A stretch of DNA of 64,000 bases. Origin: Cladopsammia gracilis. Lineage: Eukaryota > Cnidaria > Anthozoa > Scleractinia > Dendrophylliidae. The stretch is taken from contig JAJGOT010000257.1 of assembly GCA_022457155.1 (NCBI GenBank), positions 499,001 through 563,000 of the forward strand. The letters are read 5' to 3'. Under the pieces are notes generated by a model that did not search any database, was not told the DNA's origin, and worked only from the letters and a program-made list of their open reading frames with translations. Positions 34,663 to 56,312 of this stretch are shown here, one piece after another. Position numbers and translations under genes: made by a program. Within the stretch, counting starts at the first letter, position 1. Every line of letters starts with the position of its first letter.

Positions 34663-35074
34663 AGTAGTATAGCTCGCTCACGACCTAGGGAGCCAATCAG
34701 GAGCGAGTACATATAATTAGCATCTCATTTGCATCTCATTAAGAGCCGGTCAGCCAATCAGAGGCCGAGTTGAAAAGGATGACATCATGGTTTGGCATGA
34801 GAGTGAGGCAAAAAAAATTGGGGGGAGGGGTGGGGGGGCTTATAGTGACCGGAAGTGACCTTAAAGGTGACTTAAAGGTTCTTAAAGGTCGTAATGATGG
34901 TGCAATTGGTTGTCTCAAACAACCAGATCCCAGATCCCGCTCGGGATCCCTCGGGATGGTTCGGGAATCGCTCGGGATCTTGCTCGCTGGGTCGGTCCCA
35001 GATCCCGCTCGGCCAGGGAGACAAAAATAACAGAAAATAACACAAAAAATGCCTTTTTAATAGTCACACAACGA
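34663..35074 (+). repeat. left terminal inverted repeat
   Basis: The outer 200 bp (34663-34862) match the right end almost base for base. Similarity resumes with gaps through 'ggtcccagatcccgctcggcc' (near 34995) to 'tagtcacacaacga' (35074). It includes a CCAAT-type and 'gatgacatcat' CRE-like words that could serve as enhancer sites. Confidence 0.93.
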
Positions 35075-39463: not shown

Positions 39464-39691
39464 TTAACACTCGACGAAGAGGACTAGGAAAAACAACTTG
39501 TCCCGATCGGCGAGGTTGAACAGCGTTCTACAGCACCGACACAAATGGAGTTGCCGCGAGTTAAACCGTCGGCGTTTGGCTTCCTTGACGTCACGCACGA
39601 ATAGGGTGATGGTTTCCCCTCGATAGGTCTGCAATAGGGTCAATGGATCTCGGCCCCTGATGCGAGAGATGCGACAGTGAAAGCACTCCAT
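39464..39691 (-). CDS. small zinc-binding protein preceding PolB
   Basis: 75 codons from ATG at 39691. I chose this start because a TATAATAA box lies 36-43 nt upstream; the longer frame to 39760 would begin upstream of that box. Two pairs CFHC (residues 3-6) and CRCC (about 52-55) suggest one zinc site, separated by a basic stretch KEAKRRRFNSRQ. It ends just before the PolB ATG (stop at 39464, ATG at 39452; 7-nt overlap if the earlier polymerase Met is used). Being first in the polymerase message suggests an early regulatory or replication role. Family not recognised. Confidence 0.65.
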   Translation of the reverse strand: MECFHCRISRIRGRDPLTLLQTYRGETITLFVRDVKEAKRRRFNSRQLHLCRCCRTLFNLADRDKLFFLVLFVEC

Positions 39692-39723
39692 GCGAAAAAG
39701 GTCGTCGTCGAGCGGTACCCGCC

Positions 39724-39820
39724 CTCTTATTATACTCTCGAGGAAAAAATGACAATGCATGCTGGGGAAGGAACGAGGTACCCATGGGGGGGTATGGGTC
39801 TTGATTTTTCACTCGCCCCA
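39724..39820 (-). promoter_or_regulatory. left copy of the ~95-bp promoter module
   Basis: On the minus strand it reads 'gcgagtgaaaaatcaa', 'acccatacccccccatgggt', 'cgttccttcc', 'gcatgca' and 'TATAATAAGAG' in that order. The plus-strand stretch 54000-54092 is nearly identical in the same order. It drives the PolB unit leftward; a second TATA box on its far side faces right. Confidence 0.8.
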
Positions 39821-40457: not shown

Positions 40458-41057
40458 TCAATGCAGTGATTGTAGACACCCCACGGTGCGTTCGAATAAT
40501 CCGGCGAGGGCCTCTTTCCATCGGGGGTAATTGTCCACATAGCGGGAACCCACAATGGCACTCTGGGTGTGTAAGAGCGGGAAATTGCCGTTCCCCATCG
40601 CGTGAAAAGTGCCGGTGCCATAGTTGTACTTGTACCATCGCGATTTCTCCAGGTCGTAGGCAAAGATCTGCCGATGCAATTGCTTGGCATATTCCACGGT
40701 CCACCCCGTCCCTCCTTTCATCTGTTTATGGTTGAAGGTAAAGAACCCAAACGCGTAGACGCTGCCGGCCCGTGCCGCAATGTGAAAGTTGCGTTTCAAA
40801 TATTCGGCCGTGATGGCGTTGGAAACCCCTTTTCCCAATCGAGTCTGCGCCGTGATAAAGTAACTGTCGGCTCGGTTCAATTCTTCTTCCGTCAAGGGCG
40901 TGATGGTTTGACGGCGAGGGTGATGGGGACCAATCACCACGTCCAAACGAGTCCCGAAATGGAGGGCTTGACGTTCCGCCTCGGCGTCCACGCCCGGTGC
41001 TCCACCCGTGATGATGGTGTAGTCGTTCAAAACGGGAATGTCCATGGCCATCGACAT
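40458..41057 (-). CDS. SLOG/DprA-like Rossmann-fold protein
   Basis: 199 codons from ATG at 41057; the long upstream extension overlaps the neighbouring gene and is not needed. Near the N-terminus YTIITGGAPGVDAEAER (about residues 13-29) follows a short strand, the 'GG..G.D..A' phosphate/nucleotide loop of SLOG proteins (DprA, LOG, DUF2493). It is followed by VVIGPHHPRR and a helix (PLTEEELNRADSYF). The C-terminal third is aromatic rich. SLOG domains bind nucleotide-derived ligands or nucleic acid; the role in a Polinton is unknown. The match rests on one motif and predicted order, so the family call is moderate. A TATA-like TAAATAAAAAG lies at 41121-41131. Confidence 0.5.
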   Translation of the reverse strand: MSMAMDIPVLNDYTIITGGAPGVDAEAERQALHFGTRLDVVIGPHHPRRQTITPLTEEELNRADSYFITAQTRLGKGVSNAITAEYLKRNFHIAARAGSVYAFGFFTFNHKQMKGGTGWTVEYAKQLHRQIFAYDLEKSRWYKYNYGTGTFHAMGNGNFPLLHTQSAIVGSRYVDNYPRWKEALAGLFERTVGCLQSLH

Positions 41058-41120
41058 GATGAGGAGCGCTCGTGAAAAGAAATCAACGCAAAAATGAGTC
41101 CGAGCCGGAGCAAGCGGGGT

Positions 41121-41131
41121 CTTTTTATTTA
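41121..41131 (-). promoter_or_regulatory. TATA-like box for the SLOG-like gene
   Basis: TAAATAAAAAG on the minus strand, about 65-74 nt before the ATG at 41057. It lies outside the upstream coding end (41129) by two bases of overlap, so stop and promoter coincide. Confidence 0.5.
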
Positions 41132-41716
41132 GACCGTCGTCGACTTTGTCCACACGGGACGGTTGGCGGACCAATGGAATCTGTACGTGGACTGATACGT
41201 CATCCCGCATTGTCGTCGCATCCAATCCACGAAATGATGGCATTCGACTTGCGGGCAATGATGACGTAGGGGGTCGGCGTGAAAACCGCAACCTTCCACG
41301 CGATCCAAGCGTTTCATTTTACGAAACGGGGGACACCCGTAAGTTTCGAGATCGAGGTGGGGGATGCCGAGTCGATCCAAGAGATCTTGTTCCACGTGCC
41401 CCCCTTTGAAGGCCACCGTATCTCGTTCGTCGGTGCGGAATCGTTCGTACAGAGCTCGAATTTGCACGTCCAAGAGCCGGTGGGGGTAAGGCGCGGCGGC
41501 GGGGGGTGGTTGAAAGTGGAGTCCGTGAATGTTACGCATGACCCAACGGGCGGTGATCTTTTCCTTGTCCGACAACTGAGCGTACTCGACGGGGAGATGG
41601 TAATGCACAACGCCCGAATGCTGTCGCGTCCAATCGCAGTACCCCATTTCGCGGCATAGAAAACATCCCTGGATTTGGAACCCTTCCAGGTCGATGCAAA
41701 CGCATACCTTCTCCAT
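41129..41716 (-). CDS. DEDD-exonuclease-like protein
   Basis: 195 codons, ATG at 41716. The N-terminus VCIDLEGFQIQGCFLCREMG has the Asp-x-Glu of an RNase H-fold motif I. Next come LYERFRTDERDTVAFKGG and DLLDRLGIPHLDLETYG, which fit motif II (Asp). A Cys/His-rich end (CGFHADPLRHHCP, ECHHFVDW) could supply motif III His/Asp or a zinc site. By family analogy a 3'-5' exonuclease or nuclease-fold protein; catalytic competence cannot be judged by eye. TATAAAAAA at 41764-41772 lies 48-56 nt upstream. Another view is a structural zinc protein. Confidence 0.5.
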   Translation of the reverse strand: MEKVCVCIDLEGFQIQGCFLCREMGYCDWTRQHSGVVHYHLPVEYAQLSDKEKITARWVMRNIHGLHFQPPPAAAPYPHRLLDVQIRALYERFRTDERDTVAFKGGHVEQDLLDRLGIPHLDLETYGCPPFRKMKRLDRVEGCGFHADPLRHHCPQVECHHFVDWMRRQCGMTYQSTYRFHWSANRPVWTKSTTV

Positions 41717-46266: not shown

Positions 46267-47643
46267 ATGTCGTTGGAATTGTTTACGATTCCCACGGCCG
46301 ACATTGCTCGGCAGGGGTATCGGATGGTCAAGTACAGTCCGTCCACCACGGGCATCCGACCCATCACCTTCACGGTGCAAGCATTGGACGATTTTTGCGA
46401 TTTGGATCGAAGTTATTTGGAACTGGAACTGCGTTTGCCTTCGGCTTCCACCAACGGTCTGGCGGCGGACGCGAATGCCGCCTCGGACGCCGAAAACACC
46501 CGATTCGTGTACGCGGTCAACAACATTGCGCATTCCATCTTCAAACAAATGAACCTGCGCTTCAACGGAGCCCTCATGAGCGAACAGACGGATACGTACG
46601 CGTACAAGGCATTCCTAGAAACCATCTTGAATTTTAATAGAGAGGAAGGAGAGACCTTGCTGGCCGCGCAAGGGTGGGTGAATCAATTGGATGTCGTCCC
46701 TCGGATCCAAGCCACCGGTCAAAACGACGACCTACCTACCACGGCCGGATGGTTGCACGATTCGGTGCAACCCCTGAAAACGGCCTCCGTGCGATTTCGC
46801 GGTAACCAGACCGTGACGTTCCTGATCAAGCCGCACCTGGAAGCCTTTCACACGGGACGTCTTCTCACCCCGGGCGTAGAAATGGTCTTGGAACTGTTTT
46901 GCCATGCCCCCGATTTTTTCACGTTTGGCACCAAGACGAGTGGCACGGGGGCTAAACGGATGGTGACGTTGAACCACGAGGATCTGAAAGTGACCCTGCA
47001 TCTGTGCCGAGTGAGTTTGAATCCCACGGTGTACAGCGCGTTGCAAACCGATCGAAAAAGCAAGAGACAGACGGCCAAGTACCCGGTGGTGAGAAGCGAG
47101 ATCCGGTCCTTTTCGTTTGACGGACGGACCACCAAATTCACGGAAGATAACGTGTTTGTGGGAAAAGTGCCCGATCGGATGATCGTGGCGTTGGTGGACA
47201 GTCGAGCGTTTAACGGCGATGTGGAATGGTATCCGTTTGCTTTTCAAAAATTTGGGGTGACCCGCATCAAGCAAGTGGTGGATGGCGAAGAATACCCGTA
47301 CCCCACCCTGGAATTGAATGGAAACGATAATTTGAAAGATTTGAAAGGCTACCGTCGGTTCCTGGAAGCGTGTGGACGGTTGCAGCACCACGGTTCCTCC
47401 ATGGTGAGACCGGAGGATTGGGGGCAAGATGGACAATGCACGTTGTTCGCGTTCAACAATGTCCCCTCGGGCGTGGCGGACGACCCCGAGTACCGAAACC
47501 CGAAACAAGCTGGCAATTTGCGCGTGGAAATTGATTTCCAGGTTGCTCTGGATACCAATATCACCGTGTTGGTCTGGGGCGAGTTTGAAAATCTATTTGA
47601 AGTGGATGGCAACGGCGCTGTCTTGTATAACCTGCACCGTTAG
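46267..47643 (+). CDS. major capsid protein candidate (hexon-type double jelly roll)
   Basis: 458 codons from ATG at 46267. Opening SLELFTIPTADIARQGYRMV, then LDRSYLELELRLP, NIAHSIFKQMNLRFNG and TYAYKAFLETILNFNREEG. This order is that of the widespread Polinton capsid family seen in animal genomes (F54H12.2-type), whose length of 450-600 residues suits two fused jelly rolls. Many beta-strand blocks; the C-terminus NITVLVWGEFENLFEVD is also typical. Builds the icosahedral shell. Fully open. The jelly-roll assignment rests on family recognition and needs structure prediction to confirm. Confidence 0.72.
   Translation: MSLELFTIPTADIARQGYRMVKYSPSTTGIRPITFTVQALDDFCDLDRSYLELELRLPSASTNGLAADANAASDAENTRFVYAVNNIAHSIFKQMNLRFNGALMSEQTDTYAYKAFLETILNFNREEGETLLAAQGWVNQLDVVPRIQATGQNDDLPTTAGWLHDSVQPLKTASVRFRGNQTVTFLIKPHLEAFHTGRLLTPGVEMVLELFCHAPDFFTFGTKTSGTGAKRMVTLNHEDLKVTLHLCRVSLNPTVYSALQTDRKSKRQTAKYPVVRSEIRSFSFDGRTTKFTEDNVFVGKVPDRMIVALVDSRAFNGDVEWYPFAFQKFGVTRIKQVVDGEEYPYPTLELNGNDNLKDLKGYRRFLEACGRLQHHGSSMVRPEDWGQDGQCTLFAFNNVPSGVADDPEYRNPKQAGNLRVEIDFQVALDTNITVLVWGEFENLFEVDGNGAVLYNLHR
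47626..47630 (+). promoter_or_regulatory. TATA box of the protease gene
   Basis: TATAA within the last codons of the capsid gene, 54 nt before the ATG at 47680. Confidence 0.55.
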
Positions 47644-48391: not shown

Positions 48392-48463
48392 GCTTTGATG
48401 GTCTAGTGGTAAAGACGCTGCGTTGTGGCCGCAGAGACCCAGGTTCGAATCCTGGTCATTGCA
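48392..48463 (+). tRNA. tRNA-His (anticodon GTG) within the integrated element
   Basis: 72 nt. D arm GTCT/AGAC, anticodon arm CTGCG-TTGTGGC-CGCAG with anticodon GTG, four-base variable loop, T arm CCAGG-TTCGAAT-CCTGG. The acceptor GCTTTGA pairs with TCATTGC at five of seven positions (two T-T mismatches), discriminator A. The internal promoter boxes are in place: A box TGGTCTAGTGG and B box GGTTCGAATCC. A T-rich Pol III stop (cttttttttttc) follows at about 48470-48480. No intron. Confidence 0.85.
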
Positions 48464-52225: not shown

Positions 52226-52893
52226 GCATGAGCGCGTTCCAGGCCCAAGCCGTCACCGACCCTCGACGGTTTCTCCAATTGCAAGAACAGTACAAGCAAC
52301 GGTTGATGGAAGACAGTCGATTGAATAAGGCGGCGACCTTGGCGGCCGAAGAAGACGTGTTGCTCAACTCCGACCTGGACCCGGGGCTCAAAGTCGCGTT
52401 GGCCAAACCCTTGGCGCGTCAAGTGCGCGTGTGGACCAAACGCGTCCGACAACCGGGCATGACGGCCCCGGGCACGGGCGTGGGGGCAACGGCGGCGGAG
52501 GAGGAGGATCTGGCCGAGGCGCCCATCTCCACCTTCCTCAAACACATGATAAAAGGACGCACCCCGTCGACACCCGCGCCAGGTCCAAAACCGGCCAAAC
52601 CGACGGGAACCCCGAAAAAGGTCAGCGTCAAGAAACTCACGACCCCGTCGGGCATTCCGAGACCCATCCGTCCGAGGCAACTTCCTTTTGACACGCCGGC
52701 GTCGGCACCCGGTCCGTCGACGTCCTCCTCCTCGTCTCTCAGCGGGACGTTGAAGAAACGAGCCAAACAGACGATAGGGAGTGTCGCGAAAAAGACCCAA
52801 CAAGTGATCCGAGACAAAGCCAAGGCGGCCCTCGAAAAAAGAGCGAGAAGGGAATTGGAGAAACTCAAGACGAGTTGGTTGGATTGGAAGTAA
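52222..52893 (+). CDS. Lys/Pro-rich protein of unknown function
   Basis: 223 codons. N-terminal helical part (RRFLQLQEQYKQRLMEDS; DLDPGLKVALAKPLARQV), a Pro/Thr/Lys linker in the middle, and a C-terminal basic helix (KAALEKRARRELEKLKTSW). Coupled to the gene before (ATGA) and to the PLA2 gene after (TAATG). Place and composition suggest a virion-internal protein. Confidence 0.6.
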   Translation: MSMSAFQAQAVTDPRRFLQLQEQYKQRLMEDSRLNKAATLAAEEDVLLNSDLDPGLKVALAKPLARQVRVWTKRVRQPGMTAPGTGVGATAAEEEDLAEAPISTFLKHMIKGRTPSTPAPGPKPAKPTGTPKKVSVKKLTTPSGIPRPIRPRQLPFDTPASAPGPSTSSSSSLSGTLKKRAKQTIGSVAKKTQQVIRDKAKAALEKRARRELEKLKTSWLDWK

Positions 52894-53267
52894 TGGGACG
52901 CGGTCAAACACCCAAACGAAAAAGGCAACGGGCTCCCCGCCGGCAAAGAGCCATTCGCGGAGGAAGTTTCGACCTTCAAAAGTTACTGGCCAAAACGGGG
53001 ATCGAATTTCATTGGCCGGGGTATCAATACATGGGCCCCGGAACGCATCTCGCCAAACGCCTGAAACGAGGGGATCCCGGCAAAAATCGATTGGATCGAT
53101 TGGCCAAGCAACACGACATCGATTACGGTCGTGCCAAGACGTTGCAGGACAAGTGGAAAGCGGACGAAAAAATGATCCGAGGGATTGCCAACCTGCCGGG
53201 AAAACACACCCTGACGGAGAAGATTGTGAAAAAAATCATGCAAGTCAAGAAACGTTTAAAATTGTGA
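52893..53267 (+). CDS. parvovirus-type phospholipase A2 domain protein
   Basis: 124 codons from the TAATG overlap. Basic head, then RAIRGGSFDLQK (residues about 19-30), an Ile-Arg-Gly-Gly-Ser site that matches the adenain consensus. The PLA2 core has PGYQYMGPGT (calcium loop, about 42-51) and RLDRLAKQHDIDYGRA with the catalytic His74-Asp75 and Tyr78. This is the VP1u-type phospholipase that parvoviruses use to breach endosomes, so an entry role is likely. Released from its basic head by the protease if the site is used. AATAAA follows at 53311-53316. Confidence 0.85.
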   Translation: MGRGQTPKRKRQRAPRRQRAIRGGSFDLQKLLAKTGIEFHWPGYQYMGPGTHLAKRLKRGDPGKNRLDRLAKQHDIDYGRAKTLQDKWKADEKMIRGIANLPGKHTLTEKIVKKIMQVKKRLKL

Positions 53268-53926: not shown

Positions 53927-53999
53927 CGTGCCCGTCCTTCTTTTCTCTCTATCTCTCGAGGCGAATTAAATAGAACGGGGTGGGGTGGCGAGAGACCCT

Positions 54000-54092
54000 G
54001 GGACGAGTGAAGAAATCAATACCCATACCCCCCCATGGGTACCCCGTTCCTTCCCGGCATGCATCGTCCTCCTTCCCGAGGGTATAATAAGA
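54000..54092 (+). promoter_or_regulatory. right copy of the ~95-bp promoter module
   Basis: Nearly identical to 39724-39820 on the opposite strand, with the same words in the same order: 'gacgagtgaagaaatcaa', 'acccatacccccccatgggtacc', 'cgttccttcc', 'ggcatgcat', then TATAATAAGAG (54083-54093). It drives the variable-tail gene. Confidence 0.8.
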
Positions 54093-54158
54093 GCAAGGGG
54101 TTCCCACCGTTTTTTTCACCCTTCACTCAGTTGTTACGAGCTCTAGTGAAAAACAAAC

Positions 54159-54404
54159 ATGGCGTCCAACAAAGTGGTCACACCCTCGGTGGTGGAAGTC
54201 ATGCGTGCCAAGCGAAAACGTGTCATGGATGAGAAGGAGACCCGGGCCGCCAAACGCGTGAAAGTGGAACCGGAGGGAGAGAATCCATCCCACACTGCAT
54301 CGCTTCCCCATGGAGAGTCTTATTGGGATTATTTACCCATCATCCTCCAAGAACGCATCCTGGATTTGGCGGCCAGGCAATTGCACCGCGAACGCATGGC
54401 ACGG
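54159..54404 (+). CDS. common first exon of a variable-tail gene (F-box-like end)
   Basis: 82 codons, ending exactly on a codon boundary at CGG|GTATGT, a strong splice donor. Basic nuclear-signal-like stretch (RAKRKRVMDEKETRAAKRVK, residues about 15-34), then YWDYLPIILQERILDLA followed by a basic helix (HRERMAR). The 'LP..LQ..IL..A' pattern is F-box-like, which would link the protein to a Cullin ubiquitin ligase; weak evidence. The TATA box is 76 nt upstream in the promoter module shared with the polymerase unit, so it is probably early. If the donor is not used, translation runs into module 0. Confidence 0.75.
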
Positions 54405-54638
54405 GTATGTTTCGACCTTGTATTTCATCGTGTTTGCCAATTTCATAAATGGGTCAAATATTCAGTCAGATGTGTCGGTTGCAACCATTGCTCCCGTCGA
54501 CGGCGTTACGGGGCCATCGATCAATTATTAACCAAAGTGCGTTCCATCCAAAACCCCCATTCAGCCCATTGGACCAATGGCTATTGCAATGACTGCCACG
54601 ACGATTTGATGCAATCCCGGAAACTTTGTAACCTTTAA
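54405..54638 (+). CDS. variable tail module 0 (read-through form)
   Basis: In frame with the first exon without splicing, stop at 54636-54638. Begins VCFDLVFHRVCQFHKWV (C-x4-W), then CVGCNHC and YGAIDQLL, and has an extra C-terminal YCNDCHDD. Same core as the six spliced modules, so the unspliced message also makes a family member. Confidence 0.7.
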   Translation, partial: VCFDLVFHRVCQFHKWVKYSVRCVGCNHCSRRRRYGAIDQLLTKVRSIQNPHSAHWTNGYCNDCHDDLMQSRKLCNL

Positions 54639-54663
54639 TTTTTTTTTCCTCTTTAACTACAAG

Positions 54664-54795
54664 GTGATGGTCGAAATCCGCACCTTGCTTCGCTGTCCTG
54701 TCACGCAATGGGTGCGACCCTCTCCCAGTCGACGATCGTTTATTGTGTGGGACCTCTCTTGCCTCTACTGCCGGCGACGTGTTGTTAATCTGTAA
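54664..54795 (+). CDS. variable tail module 1
   Basis: Follows acceptor 'ctttaactacaag'. Phase 0, 43 residues, stop TAA at 54793. RCPVTQW gives C-x4-W, then CLYCRRR and an early stop, the shortest tail. Confidence 0.7.
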   Translation: MMVEIRTLLRCPVTQWVRPSPSRRSFIVWDLSCLYCRRRVVNL

Positions 54796-54819
54796 TTTTT
54801 TTTCACCCCACAAACACAG

Positions 54820-54981
54820 ATCACGGCACAGTTACGGGACTTGTACCTCTGCCCACGCTCGCTATGGTTGAACACCGAAAAACATACGAACAATCCTACG
54901 GTGTGCCAACATTGTAGCCGTAAAGTCTTCAAGGGCAAAATTGATCGTTTGATTAAAAGAAGGAAACGCGGAGATCACTAA
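54820..54981 (+). CDS. variable tail module 2
   Basis: Follows acceptor 'caaacacag' after a pyrimidine tract. Phase 0, 53 residues, stop TAA. LCPRSLW gives C-x4-W, then VCQHCSRK and GKIDRL with a basic end. Confidence 0.75.
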   Translation: MTAQLRDLYLCPRSLWLNTEKHTNNPTVCQHCSRKVFKGKIDRLIKRRKRGDH

Positions 54982-55010
54982 TTTTCATTTTTTTATTTCA
55001 CACTGTACAG

Positions 55011-55151
55011 TTGATTTTAGAAATACAAGACTTGCCCGTTTGCGCCGTTTCTATTTGGGGCGATCCCACTCCGTCATCGTATTGTCAACATTGTTTGCGA
55101 CGATGGACAGACGGGGACATTGACGATCGTTTTCTTCTCCGTTTCTTTTAG
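55011..55151 (+). CDS. variable tail module 3
   Basis: Follows acceptor 'cacactgtacag'. Phase 0, 46 residues. VCAVSIW gives C-x4-W, then YCQHCLRR and GDIDDRF. Its stop TAG (55149-55151) is also the AG acceptor of module 4, so the two share bases. Confidence 0.75.
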   Translation: MILEIQDLPVCAVSIWGDPTPSSYCQHCLRRWTDGDIDDRFLLRFF

Positions 55152-55397
55152 TTGATGCAAGAACTCGGGCAATCCGTCGTGTGTCCGTGCACCAAATGGG
55201 TCACCAATCCCGCGTTGCCTTATTGTCAACATTGTCGACGCATAGAACTGTTTGGGCGACTCGATTTTCTCGTCGTCCATTCCCTCGATTGGGCTCACGA
55301 CGACTTTATGGACAGACACGACGCCGTTTACAACGATGATCACCTGATTGCTTTTGCGGACAAACGTTTAAATTTACGTTTTTATCAACACGTGTAA
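55152..55397 (+). CDS. variable tail module 4
   Basis: Starts right after the TAG that ends module 3 (pyrimidine-rich 'ctccgtttcttttag'). Phase 0, 81 residues, the longest tail. VCPCTKW gives C-x4-W, then YCQHCRRI and GRLDFL, plus an acidic extension. AATAAA lies at about 55421. Confidence 0.75.
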   Translation: MMQELGQSVVCPCTKWVTNPALPYCQHCRRIELFGRLDFLVVHSLDWAHDDFMDRHDAVYNDDHLIAFADKRLNLRFYQHV

Positions 55398-55446
55398 TTA
55401 TTTTTTAAAAAACAATCGTGAATAAATTTTGTTGTTGTTTTTTCAG

Positions 55447-55608
55447 ATTCTGGATCAATTGCTGTCTTTTCGCGTTTGCCCCTTGTACCTATGGTCCACG
55501 CGATCCTTCTTTCTTTCCTATCCATGCTGCCATTGCGTGCGGGGACTGGGCCTGGGAACCATTGACGATTGGTTGAAATACAAAAAGCGACAAAACCACT
55601 CAACGTGA
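55447..55608 (+). CDS. variable tail module 5
   Basis: Follows acceptor 'gttgttttttcag'. Phase 0, 53 residues, stop TGA. VCPLYLW gives C-x4-W, then CCHCVRG and GTIDDWL. Confidence 0.78.
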   Translation: MLDQLLSFRVCPLYLWSTRSFFLSYPCCHCVRGLGLGTIDDWLKYKKRQNHST

Positions 55609-55623
55609 CTTCCCTTTTTTCAG

Positions 55624-55830
55624 GTCATGACGCAATTAAAATCCCTGATCGTGTGTGGCTTCCGACAATGGACCACCCGCAGTGCCGATCCCTGGATTCT
55701 ATGCAACCATTGCATTCGGTATTTTGCTCTCGGGTCCATTGACGACTGGCTCGCAAAGAACAAACCGCCGCCACCCAGAAGCTATTGGGGTGAAATCTAC
55801 AACACACGAACAAATCCATTCATGAATTGA
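55624..55830 (+). CDS. variable tail module 6
   Basis: Follows acceptor 'cccttttttcag', only 15 nt after module 5. Phase 0, 68 residues, stop TGA. VCGFRQW gives C-x4-W, then LCNHCIRY and GSIDDWL, plus a Pro-rich end. ATTAAA near 55873, inside the terminal repeat, may end the message. Confidence 0.78.
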   Translation, partial: VMTQLKSLIVCGFRQWTTRSADPWILCNHCIRYFALGSIDDWLAKNKPPPPRSYWGEIYNTRTNPFMN

Positions 55831-55856: not shown

Positions 55857-56312
55857 GTTTCGTTGTGTGACTATTAAAAAGGCATTTTTTGCGTTATTTT
55901 CGGATTTTTTTCTGTCTCTCTGGCCGAGCGGGATCTGGGACCCACCCCCGATGCCTGAGCTCGCGATCCCAAAAAAAGGTTATTTCCGGTCAGCGGTCTT
56001 TTCCTGAGCCCGCGATCCAAAAAAAATTATTTCCGGTCAGCGGTATCTGAGCCCGCGATCCAAACGGGGTTACTTCCGGTCAGCGGTCTCCCACCCTCAG
56101 GCAAGCGCCACCCAAGGTCACTTCCGGTCACTCTCAAACCCCCACCCCTCCCCCCAATTTTTTTTGCCTCACTCTCATGCCAAACCATGATGTCATCCTT
56201 TTCAACTCGGCCTCTGATTGGCTGACCGGCTCTTAATGAGATGCAAATGAGATGCTAATTATATGTACTCGCTCCTGATTGGCTCCCTAGGTCGTGAGCG
56301 AGCTATACTACT
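55857..56312 (-). repeat. right terminal inverted repeat
   Basis: The reverse complement matches the left end from AGTAGTATAGCTCG inward: 199 bp near identical (56114-56312), then a longer middle carrying tandem repeats, then matching inner blocks to about 55857 ('tcgttgtgtgactattaaaaagg'). Confidence 0.93.
55954..56090 (+). repeat. three ~45-bp tandem repeats in the right terminus
   Basis: Three units with 'ctgagc.cgcgatcc' and 'ttccggtcagcggt' at about 55954-56001, 56002-56046 and 56047-56090. The last block echoes the 'cacttccggtcac' of the outer repeat. The left terminus lacks this array. Confidence 0.8.

Follow-up and report, generated by a model that had tools for sequence, protein, structure and literature searches.

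The stretch of DNA analysed here (64,000 nucleotides in length and hereafter called the window) comes from the stony coral Cladopsammia gracilis (contig JAJGOT010000257.1, positions 499,001 to 563,000) and carries, at 34663-56312, an element of the Polinton/adintovirus type, recognised by its terminal inverted repeats, PolB, integrase and capsid protein. Of the genes found in this element, the one nearest its right repeat, which we refer to as the tail gene, very probably represents one accessory gene in which an 82-codon exon is followed by seven diverged tandem modules, with predicted alternative 3' splice-site choice bringing one module into use at a time. Its parts are the following:

53998..54093, plus strand: promoter-like region of the tail gene, ending in TATAATAAGAG, with a TATA-like site at 54083
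54159..54404, plus strand: shared first exon (exon 1), an open frame of 82 codons with a basic stretch and the helix region WDYLPxxLQxRILDLA
54405..54410, plus strand: splice-donor-like GTATGT on the codon boundary CGG/GTATGT (54404/54405)
54405..54638, plus strand: tail 0, reached by reading through the donor, 77 codons and a stop; conserved in the exon 1 relative P0001
54664..54795, plus strand: tail 1, 43 codons and a stop, preceded by a pyrimidine-rich stretch and AAG
54820..54981, plus strand: tail 2, 53 codons and a stop, preceded by CAG; no in-frame ATG
55011..55151, plus strand: tail 3, 46 codons and a stop, preceded by CAG; no in-frame ATG
55152..55397, plus strand: tail 4, 81 codons and a stop, preceded by TAG
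55447..55608, plus strand: tail 5, 53 codons and a stop, preceded by CAG; no in-frame ATG
55624..55830, plus strand: tail 6, 68 codons and a stop, preceded by CAG
55873..55878, plus strand: ATTAAA, a candidate shared poly(A) signal (presumed function) 3' of the last module

The layout is tight, with spacers of 25, 24, 29, 0, 49 and 15 nucleotides (nt) between successive modules, and the TAG stop of tail 3 doubles as the acceptor TAG of tail 4. The first-pass annotation had described an 82-codon exon ending on a codon boundary, a read-through tail and six further segments, each following a pyrimidine-rich stretch and AG, open in phase 0 and closed by its own stop; this description, coordinates included, was verified. 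All six window acceptors have AG at the exact register and none at the 12 preceding offsets. Donor, pyrimidine-rich stretch, AG and an AG-free zone at a compatible phase together make up the signature of alternative 3' splice-site choice. Exon 1 itself has two relatives (P0001 and P0002) that are 69% and 68% identical to it. Just upstream of exon 1, at 54131, lies a strong acceptor-like site (pyrimidine tract and CAG), which may be where transcription starts or where a leader intron ends, and AATAAA occurs also at 55421, between tails 4 and 5.

The modules are homologous to one another, and their homology begins at the AG and not at a start codon. Counted from the codon that follows AG, or in tail 0 from the one that follows the donor position, residue 11 is Cys and residue 16 Trp in all seven modules (C-x4-W), with C-x2-C and then x-Arg behind them; C-x-H-C is present in six, as is G-x-[IL]-D, which module 1 lacks. 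This agrees with the earlier description of C-x4-W and C-x2-C in all modules and of G-x-[IL]-D in most. From the Cys/His pattern, the tails are likely to be small zinc-binding ends. The alignment and profile that the first-pass annotation had proposed were carried out with leave-one-out hidden Markov models (HMMs), which recover each of the seven modules (expectation values, E, from 8.5e-4 to 1.1e-14); of the 1936 window frames, no non-module frame scores as high, the best of these reaching E of about 0.3-0.6.

The claim that chance cannot easily produce this arrangement is thus borne out by the profiles; its appeal to seven equal phases is weaker, because the modules are tandem duplicates and their phases are not independent. 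We therefore do not accept equal phases alone as proof of splicing, since duplication accounts for them. What constitutes evidence beyond equal phases is that the modules persist with a mean nucleotide identity to one another of about 51% (22-codon core), and that they do so in many copies: under simulated neutral change of 0.3 per site, all six downstream modules are still open in 0.1% of runs. Frame 0 is also the best codon-usage frame in six of the seven tails.

The tail gene is present in many copies in the same genome. A protein search of the 878-Mb assembly gave 98 matches, of which 80 stretches were retrieved for analysis; the tail profile finds at least seven distinct modules in 57 of them, five or six in another 7 and one to four in 8, and it has no match in the remaining 8. 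We define a full array as exon 1 and tails 0-6 each covered to at least 80%, which applies to 26 stretches, the window included. The module number of seven given by the first-pass annotation holds for the window and for eight other full arrays, which lack an eighth module (5b) that the remaining 17 carry between tails 5 and 6. As about 60 nt at the start of module 5b match the start of tail 6, modules are likely to have been lost or gained through recombination between them.

The splice-like signals are kept in these copies, as the first-pass annotation expected of acceptors in related elements. Counting the window, 400 of 404 aligned module copies have AG in front of them and exon 1 is followed by GTATGT in 59 of 62 aligned copies, while tail-0 sequence directly follows exon 1 in all 60 copies in which this can be checked. 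In an alignment of 67 copies, which omits 13 of the 80 retrieved loci as too divergent or fragmentary, identity to the window is 97.3% at AG sites and 91.7% at spacer sites. Alignments below 75% identity, codon columns covered by under 10 copies and codons more than one base away from the commonest codon were left aside in the donor, AG and variant counts; for the AG count, an alignment also had to start within a module's first four bases. A final recount removed three doubtful alignments, one of 5b and two of tail 6, which changed the AG count from 402/406 to 400/404 and the ratio of amino-acid-changing to silent variants (N/S) among shared variants from 58/61 to 57/61.

These variants permit the tails to be examined for selection. 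For tails 1-6 and 5b, we sorted variants by the number of copies that carry them, with a neutral N/S expectation of 2.59 and on the assumption that multi-copy variants arose mainly during replication of the element. Private variants are expected to be near neutral, because genomic copies decay freely after insertion, and indeed amount to N 321 and S 115 (ratio 2.8) with 29 stops. Variants in two or three copies amount to N 101 and S 50 with 6 stops, and those in at least four copies to N 57 and S 61 with no stop (private versus at least four copies, Fisher p = 3.8e-7). At thresholds of at least 2, 3, 5, 8 and 12 copies, N/S before the recount was 161/111, 86/75, 48/51, 38/35 and 17/24. Read in the wrong frames, variants in at least four copies give 84/29 (+1) and 99/14 (+2), neither of them depleted and the latter significantly opposite. 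Amino-acid changes are thus depleted in the tails in the predicted frame only.

The same organisation recurs in a second lineage, represented by two loci (L069 and L070) whose protein is about 39% identical to that of the window over the aligned part; searched from the L070 side, only these two and the window family were found. In both loci, exon 1 ends as AAAAAG/GTATGT on a codon boundary, a read-through tail comes next, and seven further modules (eight in all) follow in the same register and in phase 0, each preceded by a pyrimidine-rich stretch and AG. All 14 downstream modules of the two loci have AG at the exact register, and none has it at any of the 12 offsets before; 13 of these were placed by HMM profile, three of them at E > 0.001 (the last of L070 at E 0.34), and the last L069 module comes from a search with AG as a requirement. 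There is a 4-nt overlap between modules 5 and 6, so that the acceptor sits inside the preceding coding end. A block CATACCCCCCCATGGGTAC and a TATA-like site, read by eye, precede exon 1 in both loci. Tail 3 of the window groups with module 3 of L069 and L070 (support 93/88), which suggests that the array probably arose in part before the two lineages split; other groupings are weak, with long branches.

Two other genes of the window have homologues in the flanks of L070 (51%, E 8e-71; 42%, E 5e-32), and a RING-like frame lies near both L069 and L070 (E 9e-7 and 5e-6); both loci therefore belong to a related element. No capsid was found when a 3-kb piece near L070 was searched for it, and other element genes were seen in a nearer piece. 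Six further loci (L071-L076) hold relatives of the exon 1 domain without modules and without a match to the tail profile, and four of them have clear short frames with other Cys motifs. These module-less relatives make a single protein with one C-terminal end a plausible ancestor.

Several observations weigh against the reading of one gene with alternative tails. The coding frame of tail 3 is not its best codon-usage frame. The acceptor at 54820 is weak, as 122 of the 1927 AGs of the element have a pyrimidine score at least as high, compared with 2, 3, 11, 11 and 30 for the other five window acceptors; only AGs with a pyrimidine at -3 and with an AG-free stretch were counted, although position -3 of the 54664 acceptor is A. 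Pairwise ratios of nonsynonymous to synonymous rates (dN/dS) in the two highest identity bands are 0.85 and 0.89 for tail 1 and 0.77 and 0.83 for tail 5, each based on few differences, and the comparison of L069 with L070 gives N 49 and S 28 over seven modules, only mildly below neutral. Many copies are decayed by stops or frameshifts, all eight segments being intact under a strict rule in 9 of the 26 full arrays. Because copies in one genome have a common ancestry, neither they nor the tail variants are fully independent. At the protein level, no F-box or zinc domain rises above the Pfam cut-off in the window tail gene, the AlphaFold models are poor (predicted local distance difference test, pLDDT, 64.5 in both; predicted template modelling score, pTM, 0.30 and 0.35), and fold searches with the first model gave no match at E <= 0.001.

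The unequal acceptor scores, with 2 to 122 AGs as good or better, and the variable module number would suit a gene that is truly spliced and in which one or two acceptors are usefully used, the others being relics. We consider this unlikely, given that in every one of the seven downstream modules, viewed singly, shared variants have a lower N/S than private ones, although the numbers are small. The variable module number, together with the 60 nt shared by module 5b and tail 6, could also be explained if tail 0 alone were expressed and the downstream modules formed a silent store that enters the expressed site by recombination. A store would have no need of the acceptor AG, AG-free stretch and own stop that these modules keep, and the sequence found after exon 1 in the checkable copies is invariably tail 0 and no other module, which renders this explanation quite improbable.

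That the modules are separate small genes, each with its own ATG or a trans-spliced leader, draws on the ATG at the second codon of tails 1, 4 and 6 and on AG acceptors that could serve a spliced leader. The first-pass annotation had itself named separate ATG-started genes in related elements as an outcome that would speak against it. However, tails 2, 3 and 5 have no in-frame ATG, none of the downstream L070 modules has an ATG at codon 2 (two of the seven have none at all), the spacers of 0-49 nt are too short for promoters, and the homology starts at the AG; we regard separate genes as very improbable. The decay of many copies and the minority of fully intact arrays are what one would expect of functionless duplicates of an ancestral C-terminal domain that are open by chance or youth. 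This we find hardly credible, as cores of such low mutual identity remain open against the simulated expectation, the layout persists in the 39%-identical lineage, and the depletion of amino-acid changes among shared variants in frame 0 only already contradicts it. The shared register, the conserved AG and GTATGT, the frame-specific depletion and the second lineage make one gene with nested alternative 3' splice sites very likely. The first-pass annotation had predicted mutually exclusive terminal exons. Alternative ends are indeed supported, but exclusive exons in the strict sense must be rejected, because no donor is required after each tail; nested alternative 3' splice sites that share one donor describe the arrangement better.

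As to what the product might do, the basic stretch of exon 1 resembles a nuclear localisation signal, and its helix region resembles an F-box. An F-box profile for exon 1 gave no Pfam match at E <= 10, and Pfam likewise gave no match to a BTB or a J domain in the shared part; PRANC matched the L069 protein only, at 13.7 bits and below the cut-off of 25.8. The tail gene yielded nothing above cut-off in Pfam, PHROGs or PDB sequences, and a protein search with the seven tails found none at E <= 1 among 21 candidates. Searches of IMG/VR viral contigs with the tail gene, the capsid protein, PolB, the ATPase and two alignments confirmed no relative, nor did a search of prokaryote genomes. Two candidates were set aside: the DpHF7 filament protein, a PDB profile match (E 2e-4) that was lost once more relatives were included and is taken as a match of helix composition, and an F-box-named viral protein in the fold search (E 3.6), which is not counted as evidence. 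The gene product is perhaps a nuclear, possibly F-box-like adaptor with exchangeable target-binding ends.

The element that carries the tail gene is bounded by the following repeats:

34663..34836, no strand assigned: left terminal inverted repeat, 174 nt, 100% complementary to 56139-56312
56139..56312, no strand assigned: right terminal inverted repeat, partner of the left repeat

Inspection by eye found no matching flanks outside these repeats that would indicate a target-site duplication. PolB matches PF03175 DNA_pol_B_2 (153.7 bits, cut-off 25.8) and the integrase, of retrovirus-like type, PF00665 rve (49.2 bits, cut-off 32.6). The capsid candidate at 46267-47643 has no match in Pfam and is 56% identical to a Porites lobata protein named Major capsid protein in the source; its named homologues, among the matches listed, come from Porites and Montipora. 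Candidates for an adenovirus-type protease (Peptidase_C5, 16.0 bits, cut-off 21.3) and a packaging ATPase (AAA families) remain below the Pfam cut-offs. The element further holds a DprA-like protein at 40461-41243 on the minus strand (PF02481, 33.6 bits, cut-off 29.6), here in an animal Polinton, a tRNA gene at 48392-48463 on the plus strand (Rfam, 61.7 bits) and a phospholipase A2-like domain at 52893-53267 on the plus strand (PF08398, 44.7 bits), of a kind known from parvovirus capsids.

The promoter-like region of the tail gene (53998-54093, plus strand) is 86% identical over 99 columns to a minus-strand stretch at 39821-39724, which lies in the opposite orientation and precedes a 75-amino-acid frame and the PolB gene. 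Owing to this likeness, the tail gene is likely to be expressed with PolB, early. The 75-amino-acid frame (39470-39694, minus strand) stands between the promoter-like stretch and PolB, contains Cys-rich pairs and has no Pfam match at E <= 0.01. At L070, the tail gene adjoins homologues of the frames at 39749 (RING-like) and 40461, that is, of the PolB end of the window element, as if the interior had been inverted between the 86%-identical promoter-like repeats.

The tail gene would accordingly share a promoter type with PolB and be transcribed with it, early, into an RNA that carries exon 1, the donor and all modules and ends at a common poly(A) site near 55873. Unspliced, this transcript would encode tail 0; splicing from 54404 to one of the six AGs would yield another tail. 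As each tail has its own stop, only the first-joined module would be translated, and the remaining modules would become 3' untranslated sequence. Less certainly, exon 1 may bring a nuclear signal together with an adaptor surface that is helical and perhaps F-box-like, and each tail may contribute a different target-binding end, such that one viral gene could address several host or viral partners. Tails would be gained and lost by recombination between modules.

Comparable designs are known from other systems. The Drosophila gene lola combines a common N-terminal part with alternative C-terminal ends, 17 of its 20 isoforms being of zinc-finger type, and most of the at least 30 isoforms of mod(mdg4) have FLYWCH domains; with the tail gene, both share a common N-terminus joined to one of many C-terminal ends (PMC11426971). 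They are, however, host genes with a BTB domain and trans-splicing, whereas the tail gene is viral, 1.7 kb long and without a BTB match, with spacers of 0-49 nt. Polyomavirus T antigens share 82 N-terminal residues and differ in their C-termini by alternative splicing (PMC5292005). In this they resemble the tail gene, but their tails are few, no sequence tie between the two was found, and the tail gene has no J-domain match. To our knowledge, the tails of T antigens are not a tandem family of paralogous modules. Among the relatives of adenoviruses, the right-hand-end genes of atadenoviruses include the F-box-related RH0 (PMC7551158), an accessory gene at the right end with an F-box-type domain; these are separate open reading frames, in contrast to one shared first exon with many tails, and the F-box likeness of the tail gene lacks Pfam support. 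Coral adintoviruses, one of them named from Stylophora, and Polintons share the element type with its PolB, integrase and capsid, and the main text of the paper that names the Stylophora virus makes no mention of splicing, intron, zinc or F-box (PMC11071308). In layout, lola, mod(mdg4) and the T antigens are closest, and in virus kind the atadenovirus right-end genes. In a limited search of the literature on adintoviruses, Polintons (those of corals included), viral splicing and mutually exclusive terminal exons, no such gene is reported.

By splicing, viruses are known to derive a few proteins from a single start. A tandem family of seven or eight paralogous terminal exons downstream of one viral start would, if true, represent a much denser form of this strategy, and a compact, testable case of how a virus could diversify one protein at its binding end without copying the gene as a whole. 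It would likewise be a case of splice sites kept intact amid widely diverging coding sequence, and exon gain and loss can be observed directly among the tens of copies that one genome holds, some with seven modules and some with eight. Tentatively, and with slightly more doubt than confidence, we propose a viral exon-cassette system, in which one adaptor exon and seven to eight interchangeable zinc-tipped terminal exons, arranged in an array that can expand, form a single 1.7-kb early gene, a counterpart of lola and mod(mdg4). Should this hold, one early gene would give rise to a panel of adaptors, the same N-terminal machinery being steered to different partners.
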